A stretch of DNA of 64,000 bases, from assembly GCA_017519865.1 (NCBI GenBank), contig JAFWRQ010000014.1, positions 1-64,000 of the forward strand, in the 5' to 3' direction. The translations under genes and the position numbers were made by a program. Source of the DNA: Bacteroidales bacterium (GTDB taxonomy: Bacteria; Bacteroidota; Bacteroidia; Bacteroidales; UBA932). Below the pieces are notes generated by a model. It made no database searches. It was given only the letters and a program-made list of their open reading frames with translations, and had not been told where the DNA came from. Numbering within the stretch: position 1 is the first letter of the stretch; the number at the start of each line of letters is the position of its first letter. This document shows, in pieces, positions 37,174-59,413 of this stretch.

Positions 37174-37278
37174 TTCTCTTTCGATAGCCCAGGCTGTTGT
37201 TACTACCACTTCTGGTTCCAGAGGCGGCATGGATTGTCGTTCTCCAGGGACTCTTGTGCCCAATCATTCTCTATCATC

Positions 37279-38190
37279 GTGGACCCTCTCCTGTCAAAAG
37301 TCACCTTGCGTGACGCCGGCACGGCATTGCTGGACCTCGCGATGCCGCGCCACTGCGTCGCTTGCCGCCGCCCCCTTGGCCTTCGCGAACGTTTTCTCTG
37401 TCTGGAATGTCAGGCAGACTTTCCTTTCACCCATTTCTGGGAACGCTCCCACAATCCCATGGCCGACAAGTTCAACGCCCTCATCCAGAAGGACCTTGAC
37501 GCCCTTTCCGTGCCCTCCATCTCCGCCGACCCGATTGTCCTTTCTCCCACTATGCGTGAGGTTTCACTGCCCCCCTCATCTCCCGACCCCAATACCTCCA
37601 CCGGGCCTTCTTCGTCAGTCGAGCCTTCCCCTTCGCTTCACGAGCCATACGCCTTCGCCGCTGCCCTTTTCTTCTACAACGCCGACTCGGATTACCGCCA
37701 TATCCCCTGGCACCTGAAATACGAAGGCGGGCTCGCGGCCGGGCGGTTTTTCGCCCGCATGCTGGGGGAGCGCCTCGCCGGCTCGCCGCAGTTCGCCGAC
37801 GTGGACATTGTCATCCCCGTTCCGCTGCACTGGACGCGGCGATGGCGGCGCGGCTACAACCAGGCGGAGGTCATAGCGCGCGAGCTGGCGGATGTCCTCG
37901 GCGCAGACCTGCGCACGGACATCCTCCGCCGCGCCCGCCGCACCCGCTCCCAGGTCCGCCTCGCCCCCGACGCCAAGGCCGCCAACGTCCGCGGCGCCTT
38001 CATCCTTCGGGCATTTCCCGAAGGATGTGACGCGGCTGACAGTGTGCTTCGGACGAAGCACGTGCTGTTGGTCGACGACACGTTCACCACCGGGTCGACG
38101 GTGAATGCCTGCCGCGCCGTGCTCAGGCAGGCATTCCCTCTCCCTACCCGCATCTCCGTCGCAACCCTGGCCTACGTCAGTTCTGAATAA
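37279..38190 (+). CDS. comF: ComF-family phosphoribosyltransferase-like protein
   Basis: It has a zinc finger (CVACRRPLGLRERFLCLEC), a Ser/Pro-rich spacer (about 85-115), HIPWHLKYEGGLAAGRFFARMLGERL, VPVPLHWTRRWRRGYNQAEVIAREL and the PRPP loop VLLVDDTFTTGSTVNAC. ComF proteins take part in DNA uptake or purine/nucleotide salvage-related steps; the activity is not settled. There is no good ATG: GTG 37279 is my choice, TTG 37234 and ATG 37342 are alternatives. A 27-bp REP palindrome (38001-38027) is read in frame as LRAFPEGC just before the PRPP loop, a coding insertion. The RAYT gene starts 28 bp downstream. Confidence 0.85.
   Translation: MDPLLSKVTLRDAGTALLDLAMPRHCVACRRPLGLRERFLCLECQADFPFTHFWERSHNPMADKFNALIQKDLDALSVPSISADPIVLSPTMREVSLPPSSPDPNTSTGPSSSVEPSPSLHEPYAFAAALFFYNADSDYRHIPWHLKYEGGLAAGRFFARMLGERLAGSPQFADVDIVIPVPLHWTRRWRRGYNQAEVIARELADVLGADLRTDILRRARRTRSQVRLAPDAKAANVRGAFILRAFPEGCDAADSVLRTKHVLLVDDTFTTGSTVNACRAVLRQAFPLPTRISVATLAYVSSE
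38001..38027 (-). repeat. REP palindrome inside comF
   Basis: CATCCTTCGGG and CCCGAAGGATG (11-bp perfect arms) enclose loop CATTT. It is the same element as the arrays at 39124-39234 and 59303-59413, but in opposite orientation, since those loops read AAATG or AAAAG. It is translated as part of ComF. Confidence 0.9.
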
Positions 38191-38217
38191 ATCAAATAAT
38201 CCCTAAATCTAAAAACT

Positions 38218-39150
38218 ATGACACCCGAAAGAAAATTCTACAGGAACGGCTTCCAGCACATCTTCCAGATTTCCGTCGACCGTGGCCTCATCTTCTACAC
38301 TGATGAGGATTGCATTGTATTCTTCACAATACTCTGCAGCATGGCGGTCAAGTACCGCGTCCGCATCGTAGCGGTCTGCATAATGAAAAACCATTTCCAT
38401 ATCCTTGTTCAATTCGTATTGAAGGACAATATGGAATCATTCCTGAACGCCCTCTGTTCCGTCTTTGCACGGAAGTACAATTTCAGATACAACAGAAAAG
38501 GTAAACTATTCAGAAAACCATATGGTAATGCCCCGAAGTACGGCGATGACATATATGGCTGTTTAATATACATTTACAATAATCCTATCCCCAAAAAGGC
38601 CAGGGAGACCGCAGTCGCATACCGATGGAATTTCCTTGCTTATATGGATTCCAGGAACCCTTTTTCCACTCCACTCAACAATACTTCAGACATTACCCTC
38701 CTGAAACAGAGATTCTCAATGGTGGAGAGGATCCACAGTTCCGGGAAGTATATCGACTATGCCGTCCTGGACTCATTGAAAGAAGGTTTGAATGATGAAC
38801 AGTATCTGCAGCTCCTGGACCACATAGTATCGGTATTTAATGTCATTGATTACAGCCTGATACAGTCAAAATGGAAGTCAAGGGAATCGCTGTGCGAAAT
38901 GCTTGGCCTGGTCAAGGGATTGGAATATGATCTGAACGAGGACCTTTCACGGGAGGATTACCGTAACTACGAAAGGATGAATGTGCTTGTCCGCAAGGCT
39001 GGTTTCAATCTGTCAAGGCGACGTTTCGACAGCGAAGACGCTGATCCTTCCCAGATAAGCCGTCTTCGCGGGATGGCCGTCTACAGCCTTAATCCCTCAG
39101 ACGTCGAATTGGCTAAATATTTTCATACCGGCGAGTACGCCCGAAGGTAG
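38218..39150 (+). CDS. REP-associated tyrosine transposase (RAYT), Y1/HUH family
   Basis: The 310-aa protein has a Y1 transposase domain in its first ~140 residues: the HUH motif NHFHIL (His59, His61), candidate nucleophile tyrosines Tyr87/Tyr91 in FARKYNFRYNRKGKLFR, and YIYNNPIPKKA. HUH enzymes cut single-stranded DNA through a 5'-phosphotyrosine, and RAYTs act on REP hairpins. The C-terminal half (about 150-310) is an extension beyond the usual 150-220 aa; it is helical and unrecognised. It has lower GC and other codon use than comF and the rSAM gene, which suggests transfer. REP palindromes lie 191 bp upstream and at its 3' end; the last codons and stop (ARR, TAG) are inside the first REP unit. 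Confidence 0.88.
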   Translation: MTPERKFYRNGFQHIFQISVDRGLIFYTDEDCIVFFTILCSMAVKYRVRIVAVCIMKNHFHILVQFVLKDNMESFLNALCSVFARKYNFRYNRKGKLFRKPYGNAPKYGDDIYGCLIYIYNNPIPKKARETAVAYRWNFLAYMDSRNPFSTPLNNTSDITLLKQRFSMVERIHSSGKYIDYAVLDSLKEGLNDEQYLQLLDHIVSVFNVIDYSLIQSKWKSRESLCEMLGLVKGLEYDLNEDLSREDYRNYERMNVLVRKAGFNLSRRRFDSEDADPSQISRLRGMAVYSLNPSDVELAKYFHTGEYARR

Positions 39151-39234
39151 TGTCTGAAACGCCCGCATCCTTCGGGAAATGCCCGAAGGAAGTGCACGAA
39201 ATGCCTGCATCCTTCGGGAAATGCCCGAAGGATG
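39124..39234 (+). repeat. REP array: three palindromes at 42-bp period
   Basis: Units at 39124-39150 (left arm diverged, right arm CCCGAAGGTAG), 39166-39192 (right arm CCCGAAGGAAG) and 39208-39234 (perfect CATCCTTCGGG/CCCGAAGGATG). Loops are AAATG in the last two. The 15-bp spacers are alike (TGTCTGAAACGCCCG, TGCACGAAATGCCTG). The period of 42 bp is four helical turns and 14 codons. The RAYT stop TAG forms the end of unit 1. Confidence 0.92.
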
Positions 39235-39293: not shown

Positions 39294-40367
39294 ATGGAGA
39301 GAATCTTGCTCAGGCGCAGGATGGCGCTGGACATAGTGAAGCGGCTGCAGGACGAGGCGGTGGAGAAGCACGGGCTCAACCAGCTGTTCTGGGAATGCAC
39401 GCTGCGCTGCAACCTTGCCTGCAGGCATTGCGGCAGCGACTGCCGTACTCAGTCAGCGGTCAAGGATATGCCGGTGGAGGACTTCTGCAGGGCGCTGGAT
39501 TCCGTCGCGCGGGAATGCGACCCGCACAAGGTGATGGTGAACATCACCGGCGGGGAGCCGCTGGTCCGCGCTGACCTCGAGGCCTGCGGCCGCGCCATCT
39601 ACGAGCGCGGATTCCCCTGGGGGATGGTCACCAACGGCCTCGCGCTCACTCCCGCACGCTACAGAAGCCTGCTTGCAAGCGGCCTCAGAGCGATGACCAT
39701 CAGCCTGGACGGCCTCGGCGAGGTCCACGACTGGATGCGCGGCCGGCCGGGCACCTTCAAGAAGGCCTCGGAGGCTATCAAGATGGTCATAGACTCCGGT
39801 GAGATAGAGTTCGACGTCGTCACCTGCGTGAACAGGCGCAGCCTCCCCCAACTCGAAGACCTGAAGGAGTATCTCATCGGCCTGGGCCTCAAGTCCTGGC
39901 GCCTGTTCACGATTTTCCCTGTCGGGCGGGCGGCCGGAGACCCGGAGCTCCTCCTTGACGGAAGGGAGCTCCGGCAGTTGATGGATTTCATCAAGGCCAC
40001 CCGCAAGGAAGGCCGCATCCATGCTTCTTTCGCCTGCGAAGGCTTCCTGGGCAATTACGAGGGGGAGGTCCGCGACCAGTTCTATATGTGCCAGGCGGGC
40101 GTGACCGTCGGCTCCGTCCTGGCCGACGGGTCCATCTCCGCCTGCCCGAGCATCCGCGCGGACTATGTCCAGGGCAATATCTACGAGGACGATTTCATGG
40201 AGGTATGGAACCGACGTTTCCAGCCTTACCGCGACCGTTCGTGGATGAAGAAGGACGAATGCGCCGACTGCCGCTACTGGAAATACTGCCGCGGCAACGG
40301 CATGCACCTGCGCGATGAAAACGGCAGGCTGGTCCAATGTTTGATGCAAAAAATGTCAAAGATATGA
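39294..40367 (+). CDS. radical SAM/SPASM enzyme of the rSAM/lipoprotein system
   Basis: ATG 39294 (MERILLRRRMALDIVKRLQDEA) is chosen; a longer GTG-started ORF would translate the REP array and is rejected. The 357-aa protein has the 4Fe-4S motif Cys39-x3-Cys43-x2-Cys46 (CNLACRHC), TGGEPLVRADL, TISLDGL, and a C-terminal SPASM-type cysteine set (MCQAG, ACPSI, CADCRYWKYC, QCL). The arrangement with a small lipoprotein overlapping by 4 bp matches the Bacteroidetes rSAM/lipoprotein pair (TIGR04133/TIGR04134 as I recall them). It probably modifies the partner lipoprotein or another peptide; the chemistry is unknown. Confidence 0.85.
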   Translation: MERILLRRRMALDIVKRLQDEAVEKHGLNQLFWECTLRCNLACRHCGSDCRTQSAVKDMPVEDFCRALDSVARECDPHKVMVNITGGEPLVRADLEACGRAIYERGFPWGMVTNGLALTPARYRSLLASGLRAMTISLDGLGEVHDWMRGRPGTFKKASEAIKMVIDSGEIEFDVVTCVNRRSLPQLEDLKEYLIGLGLKSWRLFTIFPVGRAAGDPELLLDGRELRQLMDFIKATRKEGRIHASFACEGFLGNYEGEVRDQFYMCQAGVTVGSVLADGSISACPSIRADYVQGNIYEDDFMEVWNRRFQPYRDRSWMKKDECADCRYWKYCRGNGMHLRDENGRLVQCLMQKMSKI

Positions 40368-54558: not shown

Positions 54559-54642
54559 TGCCCGAGGCGGGACTCGAACCCGCACATCTTTAAAGGACAA
54601 TGGATTTTGAGTCCATCGCGTCTACCATTCCGCCACTCGGGC
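54559..54642 (-). tRNA. tRNA-Leu (anticodon CAA)
   Basis: The 84-nt minus-strand cloverleaf has acceptor arms GCCCGAG/CTCGGGC, a D-arm with GGAATGGTAGACGC, an anticodon arm with loop CTCAAAA (anticodon CAA, reads UUG), an extended variable arm as expected for Leu, and a T-arm GCGGGTTCGAGTCCCGC. The CCA end is not encoded. It has its own promoter and terminator and sits between the wHTH operon and aroB. Confidence 0.93.
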
Positions 54643-54651
54643 AAGGTGGTG

Positions 54652-54682
54652 CAAAGGTATGGAAAAATCCACGATTATCAAA
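54652..54682 (-). promoter_or_regulatory. promoter of tRNA-Leu
   Basis: On the minus strand TTTG (54682 to 54679), 19 bp and TACCTTTG (54659 to 54652) form a -33/-7 pair. It ends 9 bp before the mature tRNA 5' end. A -7-like TATCTTGT (54692-54699) for aroB lies on the other strand and is close to the aroB ATG. Confidence 0.65.
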
Positions 54683-54707
54683 TAAAATCCCTATCTTGTC
54701 GTGCTTT

Positions 54708-55832
54708 ATGGAAGAAATTAGATTATACGTCAGGGAGGACTTCTCCGACCTGCCCGGATTGCTTCGTGAAGAAAACGAAGTTTACCTTGTCTACGACCGG
54801 AACGTGTCGTGGGCGGCGGAGCGCATCCGCGGGCTGTGCGCCCTTCGGGGCGCGATGGCCGTGGACGCCTCCGAGTCCGCCAAGAATCTTGGTACCGTTA
54901 CCGATATCTGCCGCTTCCTGCTGGATTCAGGTGCGGACCGGAAGGCGCTGGTGCTGGCGCTCGGTGGTGGGATAACCACGGATATGGCCGGCTTCGCCGC
55001 CTGCATATACAAGCGCGGTGTACGTTTCGCCACATTGCCCACAACTTTGCTGGCCCAGGTGGATGCCGGCATCGGTGGCAAGACCGGAGTCAACCTCGAC
55101 GGTTACAAGAACATCCTCGGTGTCATCCGGCAGCCAGAGTTTGTGTACATTGCCGGAAACACGCTGGAGACGCTTCCGGAACGGGAGTTGCGCTCAGGCG
55201 TGGCCGAGATGCTGAAGACTTTCATCATCTCGGACGCGCCGCATTACCGCCGGGCTCTGCAGCTGCTGCGCAGCGGCGCCCGGCCGGACGCGGAGCTCAT
55301 CCGCGCCGCCGCCTCCATCAAGTGCGGCGTCGTGGAGCGCGACGAGTTCGAGACCGGCGAGCGCCGCGTCCTTAACCTCGGCCACACCGTCGGCCATGCC
55401 GTCGAGTGGTGGCAGTCCCGCAGGGTACCCGCCGAAACGGCCTGCCCTGCGGGCAAATTCCCGCAGGGTGCCGTCGAAAGCGGCCTACCCTGCGGGCAAA
55501 CTCCCGCAGGGTACCCCCAAAGCGGGCCTACCCTGCGGGTGTCGCACGGCGAGGCGGTCGCGATCGGCCTGGTACAGGCGGCGCGGCTGTCGGAGGCCCT
55601 CGGCGTATGCCGGAGGGGTCTGGCCGCGCAGCTGGAGGCCGACCTGGCCTCCGTCGGGCTGCCGACCGCGTGTCCTGTCCCGGTGGCGGGCCTGCGGGAG
55701 GCCATCGCAAAGGACAAGAAGGCTGACGGCGGTTCGGTCCACTTCGTCCTGATACGCGACATCGGCAAGGTCGAGGTCAGGCTGCTGCCGGTCGACACCA
55801 TTATCCAACTGCTTGAAACTGCGAATCTATGA
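54708..55832 (+). CDS. aroB: 3-dehydroquinate synthase with an in-frame palindromic-repeat insertion
   Basis: ATG 54708 (MEEIRLYVREDFSDL) is chosen, giving 374 aa. The NAD and metal motifs are clear: LGGGITTDMAGFAACIYKRG, TTLLAQVDAGIGGKTGVNLDG, KNILGVIRQP, RSGVAEMLK, LNLGHTVGHAVE and SHGEAVAIGL. The enzyme makes dehydroquinate from DAHP in the shikimate pathway. Between GHAVE and SHGEAVA, normally a short loop, lie about 45 residues (55417-55539) encoded by a 43-bp-period palindromic array, adding about 43 residues. The metal ligands remain intact, so activity may persist with a surface loop. The stop overlaps the aroD-aroA start (ATGA). Confidence 0.9.
   Translation: MEEIRLYVREDFSDLPGLLREENEVYLVYDRNVSWAAERIRGLCALRGAMAVDASESAKNLGTVTDICRFLLDSGADRKALVLALGGGITTDMAGFAACIYKRGVRFATLPTTLLAQVDAGIGGKTGVNLDGYKNILGVIRQPEFVYIAGNTLETLPERELRSGVAEMLKTFIISDAPHYRRALQLLRSGARPDAELIRAAASIKCGVVERDEFETGERRVLNLGHTVGHAVEWWQSRRVPAETACPAGKFPQGAVESGLPCGQTPAGYPQSGPTLRVSHGEAVAIGLVQAARLSEALGVCRRGLAAQLEADLASVGLPTACPVPVAGLREAIAKDKKADGGSVHFVLIRDIGKVEVRLLPVDTIIQLLETANL
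55417..55539 (+). repeat. 43-bp-period palindromic array inside aroB
   Basis: Right half-arm CCCGCAGGGTA (55417-55427), full palindrome CCCTGCGGG/CCCGCAGGG (55445-55468), full palindrome TACCCTGCGGG/CCCGCAGGGTA (55486-55513, loop CAAACT) and left half-arm (55529-55539). Equal parts are exactly 43 bp apart. Three periods are 129 bp, so the aroB frame is kept. All three forward frames stay open through the array. Spacers have small GCCG/CGGC-like stems of their own. Confidence 0.92.
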
Positions 55833-59302: not shown

Positions 59303-59413
59303 CATCCTTCGGGAAAAGCCCGAAGGTAGCGGCAGTTTCGTTGACATCCTTCGGGAAAAGCCCGAAGGTAGTGGCGATTTCAGTGACATCCTTCGGGAAA
59401 TGCCCGAAGGATG
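59303..59413 (+). repeat. REP array: three palindromes at 42-bp period
   Basis: Units at 59303-59329 and 59345-59371 (CATCCTTCGGG, loop AAAAG, CCCGAAGGTAG) and 59387-59413 (perfect CATCCTTCGGG, loop AAATG, CCCGAAGGATG). Spacers are CGGCAGTTTCGTTGA and TGGCGATTTCAGTGA. It is the same family and the same 42-bp period as the array next to the RAYT gene 20 kb away. It fills the gap between the convergent nhaC-like gene and aroC and may act as a bidirectional terminator or mRNA stabiliser. Confidence 0.93.

Follow-up and report, generated by a model that had tools for sequence, protein, structure and literature searches.

A RAYT-type transposase of Bacteroidales and the dispersed hairpins that it probably acts on

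Biochemical work on how REP-associated tyrosine transposases (RAYTs, or TnpAREP) recognize repetitive extragenic palindromes (REPs) has dealt with a small number of gammaproteobacterial pairs, according to the part of PMC8266576 available to us. For Bacteroidetes, the available part of Quentin et al. 2018 (PMC6006769) describes subclass 2.6 (Bertels group 5), which is mostly from this phylum, has "atypical secondary structures" beside the gene with copies in the genome, and, like class 3, is without GT[AG]G. The same source reports subclass 2.1, consisting of long proteins with a C-terminal extension and helix-turn-helix (HTH)/Bac_DnaA_C-like domains, as being without REPs. Intragenic REPs, REP-supplied TAG stops, and TIRtrons, which have families of self-complementary repeats, appear in the accessible text of Di Nocera et al. 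2013 (PMC3733652). Here, we describe a gene for a RAYT/TnpAREP-like HUH-Y1 transposase and the palindromes around it, in a 64,000-nucleotide stretch of Bacteroidales DNA (contig JAFWRQ010000014.1), which we call the window. The system resembles subclass 2.6 in its Bacteroidetes host, its atypical hairpins without GT[AG]G, and the copies of these elsewhere in the genome. In the available part of PMC6006769, stem-to-transposase matching was not found described for that subclass, and no paper devoted to Bacteroidales REPs was among the literature matches listed, which cover subscription papers in part.

The transposase and its palindromes

We consider it probable (about 0.82) that the locus is a REPtron-like unit, in which a RAYT/TnpAREP-type HUH/Y1 transposase, single in this form, is accompanied by a hairpin family on which it acts. 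This reading stands on the anatomy of the locus, the predicted fold, the copy number of the palindrome, and the restriction of its stem to the transposase-owning genome. The features concerned are listed in Table 1.

Table 1. Positions of the transposase, the palindromes, and their host and neighboring genes in the window
Feature	Position	Strand	Remarks
comF-like phosphoribosyltransferase open reading frame (ORF), host of the upstream palindrome	37234..38190	+	comF/GntX models E 6e-18, 9e-23; all scores below curated cut-offs
Palindrome CATCCTTCGGG-CATTT-CCCGAAGGATG	38001..38027	.	in frame within the comF-like ORF
RAYT/TnpAREP-like HUH-Y1 transposase gene	38218..39150	+	310-aa ORF; translation, Pfam, alignment
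HUH codons of the transposase	38392-38400	+	H59-F60-H61
Catalytic Tyr codon of the transposase	38569-38571	+	Y118
Half-unit CCCGAAGGTAG	39140..39150	+	provides the transposase stop TAG (39148-39150)
REP unit CATCCTTCGGG-AAATG-CCCGAAGGAAG	39166..39192	.	15-bp spacers 39151-39165, 39193-39207
REP unit, perfect palindrome CATCCTTCGGG-AAATG-CCCGAAGGATG	39208..39234	.	
Radical SAM/SPASM gene (TIGR04133), downstream of the transposase array	39294..40367	+	start read as ATG 39294
aroB (3-dehydroquinate synthase), host of the second-family array	54600..55832	+	profile match in two stretches
Second-family array, CCTGCGGG-N6-CCCGCAGG cores 55446-55467, 55489-55510	55417..55539	.	43-bp period, in frame within aroB
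Three-unit array, same family as the transposase-flanking REPs	59303..59413	.	42-bp period, spacers oppositely oriented

The protein has the Y1 core of RAYT/TnpAREP (class 2 TnpA-Y1). Residues 31-101 match Pfam Y1_Tnp with 32.9 bits (cut-off 23), and the HUH motif is where the first-pass annotation had placed it. That annotation's choice of Y87/Y91 as catalytic was ruled out, neither position being invariant or even 90% conserved among 54 aligned sequences (the window protein counted; 52 of 57 database matches used). Instead, the tyrosine motif is Y118-I-Y-N-N-P123, in which Y118, N121, and N122 are invariant. The model has the fold of TnpAREP, the structure match to 4er8 covering residues 1-245 and the remainder being barely probed. 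The predicted 310-aa length and its C-terminal surplus were borne out: a helical extension of ~160 residues starts at about residue 150 and is conserved across homologs. Modeled alone (8 sequences), this part folds poorly, with a predicted local distance difference test score (pLDDT) of 70 and a predicted template modeling score (pTM) of 0.39. A profile search of PDB sequences gave weak matches, the best being the ISDra2 transposase (E 0.009).

An HTH/DnaA-like C-terminal domain found no Pfam support, since neither the 54 full-length members nor eight C-terminal pieces had a Bac_DnaA_C-, HTH_23-, or HTH_28-like match; two of the 54 matched HTH_AraC (best E 0.006). A short motif near the protein end, such as QIxKFLH, looks HTH-like by eye only; allowing a relaxed form of it, 69 of 76 proteins have it. 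In one relative (L076, genome G006), the C-terminal part of the transposase gene itself contains an in-frame insert, and two copies of one hairpin lie at 2343-2367 and 2614-2638 of that locus.

The five best relatives among GTDB contigs are all from "Bacteroidales bacterium" metagenome-assembled genomes. The window's own genome (2.12 Mb, 37 contigs, 75% complete) contains no near-identical copies of the transposase, its closest paralog there being 31% identical, which does not fit an IS200/IS605 insertion sequence (IS); the score against NF033573 (IS200/IS605) is 19.3 bits (cut-off 55).

The typical REP unit is 27 bp long and consists of CATCCTTCGGG-N5-CCCGAAGG with ATG, TAG, or some other triplet after it; 15-bp spacers join the units, which gives the 42-bp period noted at first pass. 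Neighbor distances in the stretches of the own genome that we examined, a count that takes in part of a second palindrome family, are exactly 42 in 12 of 18 cases and 41, 42.5, 43, or 83 in the others. One way to read an array is as arms in alternation with a short loop and a 15-nt spacer, the spacer mostly having an A-run core; half-units can terminate the array. Arm matches with at most one mismatch number 13 in the window, with 2.2 expected and none of 100 shuffles reaching 13. Folded as single-stranded DNA, the 27-mers at 38001, 39166, and 39208 gave -10.5 to -12.2 kcal/mol (z -5.9 to -7.2 relative to shuffles). Rfam at gathering thresholds found a tRNA alone in the window.

The first-pass description of these palindromes holds in outline. 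The transposase stop does lie in a REP sequence, while the upstream palindrome is inside a comF-like ORF and not intergenic, the supposed three-unit array at the gene end consists of two units, of which the first has an imperfect foot, preceded by a half-unit, and the elements 20 kb away are near-identical rather than identical, the first two units there having loop AAAAG and a TAG foot. Hairpins at several transposase flanks of relatives (L059, L070, L078, L086, and others) are set between an A/T-rich motif (~TGATNATCANCNACTTA) and its complement, and such a motif could be part of the recognized end.

The core CCTTCGGG-N5-CCCGAAGG occurs in the own genome 21 times exactly and nine times with one mismatch (reversed control 0). 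Together these cores form 18 places, beyond the seven sites initially recognized, and three of the exact ones adjoin the transposase, which is thus flanked (38001-38027, 39140-39234) by a palindrome dispersed in many genomic copies. Equal frequency in relatives is not seen: of 400 genomes of the genus, the own one has the exact core and the other 399 do not. A transposase at E <= 1e-55, with at most five candidates scored per genome, is present in eight of the 400, namely the own genome, a sister species (G190, 60% identity), and six at 38-42%.

Since the association of the window's own stem has one owner genome, we repeated the distribution test for two other transposase-linked stems, each in 40 hand-chosen genomes (owners, some relatives, and others in the order of our genome handles). 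Stem CCTTCGGAG, which adjoins three transposases ~40% identical to the window's, was found with at most one mismatch in three genomes, all owners (G008, 7 copies; G250, 19; G204, 4), with one control match in another genome. Stem CCTAGGGC was found in its owner only (G044, 12 copies), while three other genomes had a single control match each. Setting aside the two flanking copies per owner that defined each pattern leaves 5, 17, and 2 copies for CCTTCGGAG and 10 for CCTAGGGC, with zeros elsewhere. Upstream of the transposase, ~1.1 kb seems inverted between G250 and G204 (L139 and L141); in L141, REP hairpin copies lie near the ends of this stretch, and the inversion may have arisen by recombination between REPs.

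Stems across the gene and in relation to the protein

In roughly one in four of the relatives examined, the stems on the two sides of the gene match, and the stem changes along with the protein. Relatives of the transposase are common in the genus, with 42 of 61 genomes positive at E <= 1e-5 and up to nine matches per genome. For 76 loci, perfect hairpins (stem >= 7, loop 3-9) within 500 bp on the upstream side were set against those within 900 bp on the downstream side, and in 20 loci a stem was shared 7/7 across the gene. Among cross-locus combinations of an upstream with a downstream side, 26 of 5700 match, so that 0.35 would be expected; the 20 are not all independent because they include the window and a few closely related transposases. 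The loops of these pairs are A/T-rich, 34 of 40 being at least 60% A/T.

Stem agreement was then set against protein identity for 28 loci with a recognizable stem (20 strict and eight relaxed or one-sided, picked by eye). At >= 60% protein identity, the seven loop-proximal stem positions agree on average in 6.36 (14 pairs; 6 or 7 in 12 of them). The mean is 4.00 at 45-60% identity (seven pairs; 6 or 7 in none), 3.74 at 35-45% (159 pairs; 10), and 3.72 below 35% (198 pairs; nine). The position of this step is rough because the 14 close pairs are four groups of related proteins. The window/G190 pair, slightly below 60%, agrees in 5 of 7, and the G008 and G204 transposases, 73% identical, have the same stem. 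Similarity between close relatives would follow from common descent alone; what the comparison brings out is that stem and protein change together.

The corresponding locus of a sister species and a second palindrome family

In G190, comF, transposase, array, and radical SAM gene follow in the window's order, within a ~52-kb collinear stretch with gaps. As in the window, the array repeats every 42 bp and reaches into the end of the transposase gene, and the G190 comF has a palindrome at the same variable loop. In G190, the stem belongs to the TGCGGG type; it shares with the window's stem the CGGG next to the loop, and outside this the two differ. None of 29 other comF loci examined from the genus has the transposase or the radical SAM gene within ~1.5 kb per side (less at contig ends). 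For the window's radical SAM gene we read the start at 39294 because the longer ORF from 39150 begins inside the REPs and matches the profile only from its residue 54.

The transposase differs from its neighbors in how far the two species have diverged. Between window and G190, the transposase proteins are 60% identical, the comF products 78%, and the radical SAM proteins 88%. In steps of 100 bases, nucleotide identity is 0.46-0.77 across transposase and array; on one side, comF is mostly at 0.8-0.9 (low near 37.2-37.3 and 37.5-37.7 kb and at the palindrome), and on the other, the radical SAM gene is mostly at 0.81-0.94. Among 36 other aligned ORFs of the block, of which one is doubtful, the silent-site difference (pS) has a median of 0.48 and reaches at most 0.62; for the transposase it is 0.813. 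Because this exceeds all 36 neighbors, an old locus has probably had its cassette exchanged, and simple vertical descent at the shared locus was withdrawn. The likeliest history is that the cassette was swapped, or that it arrived on two occasions, at a single old site; a strongly raised substitution rate is possible, given a third-position GC of 0.58 in the transposase (0.70-0.86 in neighbors, the doubtful ORF aside). Low GC, read at first pass as a mark of recent acquisition, is real (0.458 against 0.58 for the window), and the silent-site excess suggests exchange, but the G190 copy at the same locus is also GC-poor (0.426), so that low GC does not date the event.

The stem type flanking the G190 transposase is also that of a second palindrome family in the window, one that the first-pass annotation does not list and whose array in aroB sits directly after the GHTVGHAVE stretch. 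Exact CCTGCGGG-N6-CCCGCAGG copies number 11 in the own genome, 15 in G190, 4 in G169, 2 in G081, and 1 in G358; the other 395 of the 400 genomes have none, and a single control match fell in G379. On contig C30 of the own genome, a CCTTCGGG unit continues in register, via one spacer, into CCTGCGGG units, and because of this hybrid array the two families look like forms of a single element. Arrays of the 42-bp family can sit inside genes with the frame intact because 42 bp are 14 codons. A further in-frame array of the own genome lies inside tilS. At the corresponding position, the G190 tilS (L176) has a different, long inverted repeat with arms of ~25 bp, and this position is a possible shared insertion hot spot.

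Seven flank pieces were used to find other array sites in G190, with clear counterparts for five; the pieces from own-genome contigs C26 and C36, whose matches were only weak or paralogous, were left aside. The G190 counterparts of the hsp20, ugd, and C28 sites have neither family's array in the ~1.5 kb examined (we assigned the names hsp20, ugd, and rfbA by reading the flanks rather than by a profile search). The hsp20 counterpart in G190 has a terminator-like CCCGCAG-CTGC-CTGCGGG hairpin followed by T's. At rfbA, a TGCGGG array lies ~0.65 kb upstream in G190 and the own-genome array ~0.1 kb upstream, so that the two are not clearly at the same site. The remaining clear counterpart is tilS. 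Two further repeated palindromes were seen in the own genome (L023, L043, L045, L041), one CCCTCAACC..GGTTGAGGG-like, a type absent from the 64-kb window, and one a tandem GTGTGCGAAA..TTTCGCACAC.

Interpretation and comparison with known systems

We propose a mechanism by analogy with TnpAREP, which performs cleavage and strand transfer beside single-stranded DNA hairpins (PMC8266576, available part). The palindromes would become single-stranded, for example on the lagging-strand template, and the transposase would bind the hairpin formed by a CCTTCGGG stem and a short A/T-rich loop. Y118 would nick beside the hairpin to form a 5'-phosphotyrosine, with H59 and H61 holding a metal. Strand transfer would move or multiply REP units, which would grow into 42-bp-period arrays, maybe by recombination or slippage. 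Binding, cleavage, and a role for the C-terminal extension are what we infer from this analogy. More tentatively, the genus may have a large, fast-diversifying RAYT family whose ~160-aa C-terminal domain reads the stem. Each enzyme lineage (down to ~60% identity) might then have a private stem, replaced on cassette exchange at a fixed site with relic and hybrid arrays left behind, and a 42-bp (14-codon) unit that passes genes in frame. We regard this wider scheme as doubtful.

Several points weigh against the REPtron-like reading. The protein scores 36 bits against the RAYT equivalog NF047646, short of its cut-off of 80 bits (all 54 aligned members match this model at E <= 0.01), and the canonical foot GT[AG]G is at none of 60 transposase-type (family A) hairpin strands within 7 nt 5' of the arm. 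There is one owner genome behind the distribution test of the window's stem, and 56 of the 76 loci, some cut by contig ends, have no strictly matched stem pair, among them G190, because its stems carry a mismatch. Loop polarity (A- or T-runs) across the gene is reversed in 8 of the 20 pairs, the same in 5, and unclear in 7, which weakens the idea of consistently inverted hairpins on the two gene sides. The CCTGCGGG family is abundant in the own genome though the window transposase carries the other stem, and G169, G081, and G358 have copies of it without a transposase at E <= 1e-55. Movement of REP units is, moreover, something that we infer.

A rival reading is a TIRtron- or IS-like element, in which the hairpin-gene-hairpin cassette moves as a whole, the palindromes elsewhere in the genome being solo ends or derivatives left by internal deletion. 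Stems shared across the gene, loops reversed in some pairs, and a shared-locus transposase too diverged at silent sites for simple vertical descent all fit such an element, and TIRtrons with self-complementary, multi-copy terminal inverted repeats (TIRs) are known (PMC3733652, available part). We nevertheless find it unlikely, since the nearest paralog in the own genome is so distant, since most dispersed copies form arrays with units of 42-43 bp, some of them intragenic, rather than cassette remnants, and since the window's upstream palindrome sits within comF. Far less credible still are host transcription terminators or mRNA-stability hairpins that lie near the transposase incidentally. The hairpins are indeed GC-rich and several are at gene ends, but a T-run is missing at 38001, 39166, and 59303-59413 (a short one, TTGTATTTTTG, follows the 39208 hairpin), copies are in frame within comF, aroB, and tilS, the exact core is in one of 400 genomes of the genus, and stems vary by species yet match across the gene. 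On these grounds we rejected the terminator explanation and retain the REPtron-like unit as the preferred one.

These observations bear on how RAYTs recognize REPs and on how REP families arise and get replaced. Within one genus there are many diverged transposases, several with a recognizable private stem, which offers a natural series for testing a stem code. Close pairs straddle the specificity boundary (window/G190, stems different; G008/G204, stem the same), and since relatives own matching hairpins, enzyme-hairpin pairing is testable.

Compared with the TnpAREP/REP systems of Escherichia coli and Pseudomonas/Stenotrophomonas (REPtrons, REPINs/BIMEs), the window system has the same HUH-Y1 fold, multi-unit arrays, and flanking and dispersed palindromes, imperfect or perfect. 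It differs in being without the GT[AG]G foot, in its ~160 extra C-terminal residues, and in having tens of copies, against >100 for classical REPs (PMC2817692, available part). Set against subclass 2.6 by published motifs, the window protein has NHFH, LFRK (F-R/K for WQ), and YIYNNP in place of NH[LIV]H, WQ, and YIH[QN]NP, and is 310 aa long with a large C-terminal region, where the available table of PMC6006769 gives 179, which we take as the length in aa. Subclass 2.1 and TIRYT-TIRtron elements (PMC6006769, PMC3733652, available parts) share with it the C-terminal extension and inverted repeats, some self-complementary and multi-copy; unlike subclass 2.1, the window transposase has REPs and no HTH/Bac_DnaA_C-like Pfam match. 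As in Rickettsia palindromic elements and intragenic REPs (PMC3733652, available part), palindromes are read in frame within host genes and REP ends give TAG stops; unlike these known repeats, those of the window are in Bacteroidales and adjoin a candidate partner transposase. REP-supplied stops, REPs within ORFs, and REP-like structures at Bacteroidetes Y1 transposases are thus already published, as far as the available parts of PMC3733652 and PMC6006769 go. What sets the present group apart is a large C-terminal region occurring together with REPs, a lattice of 42/43 bp, and stems that are private to a species and agree on the two sides of the gene.
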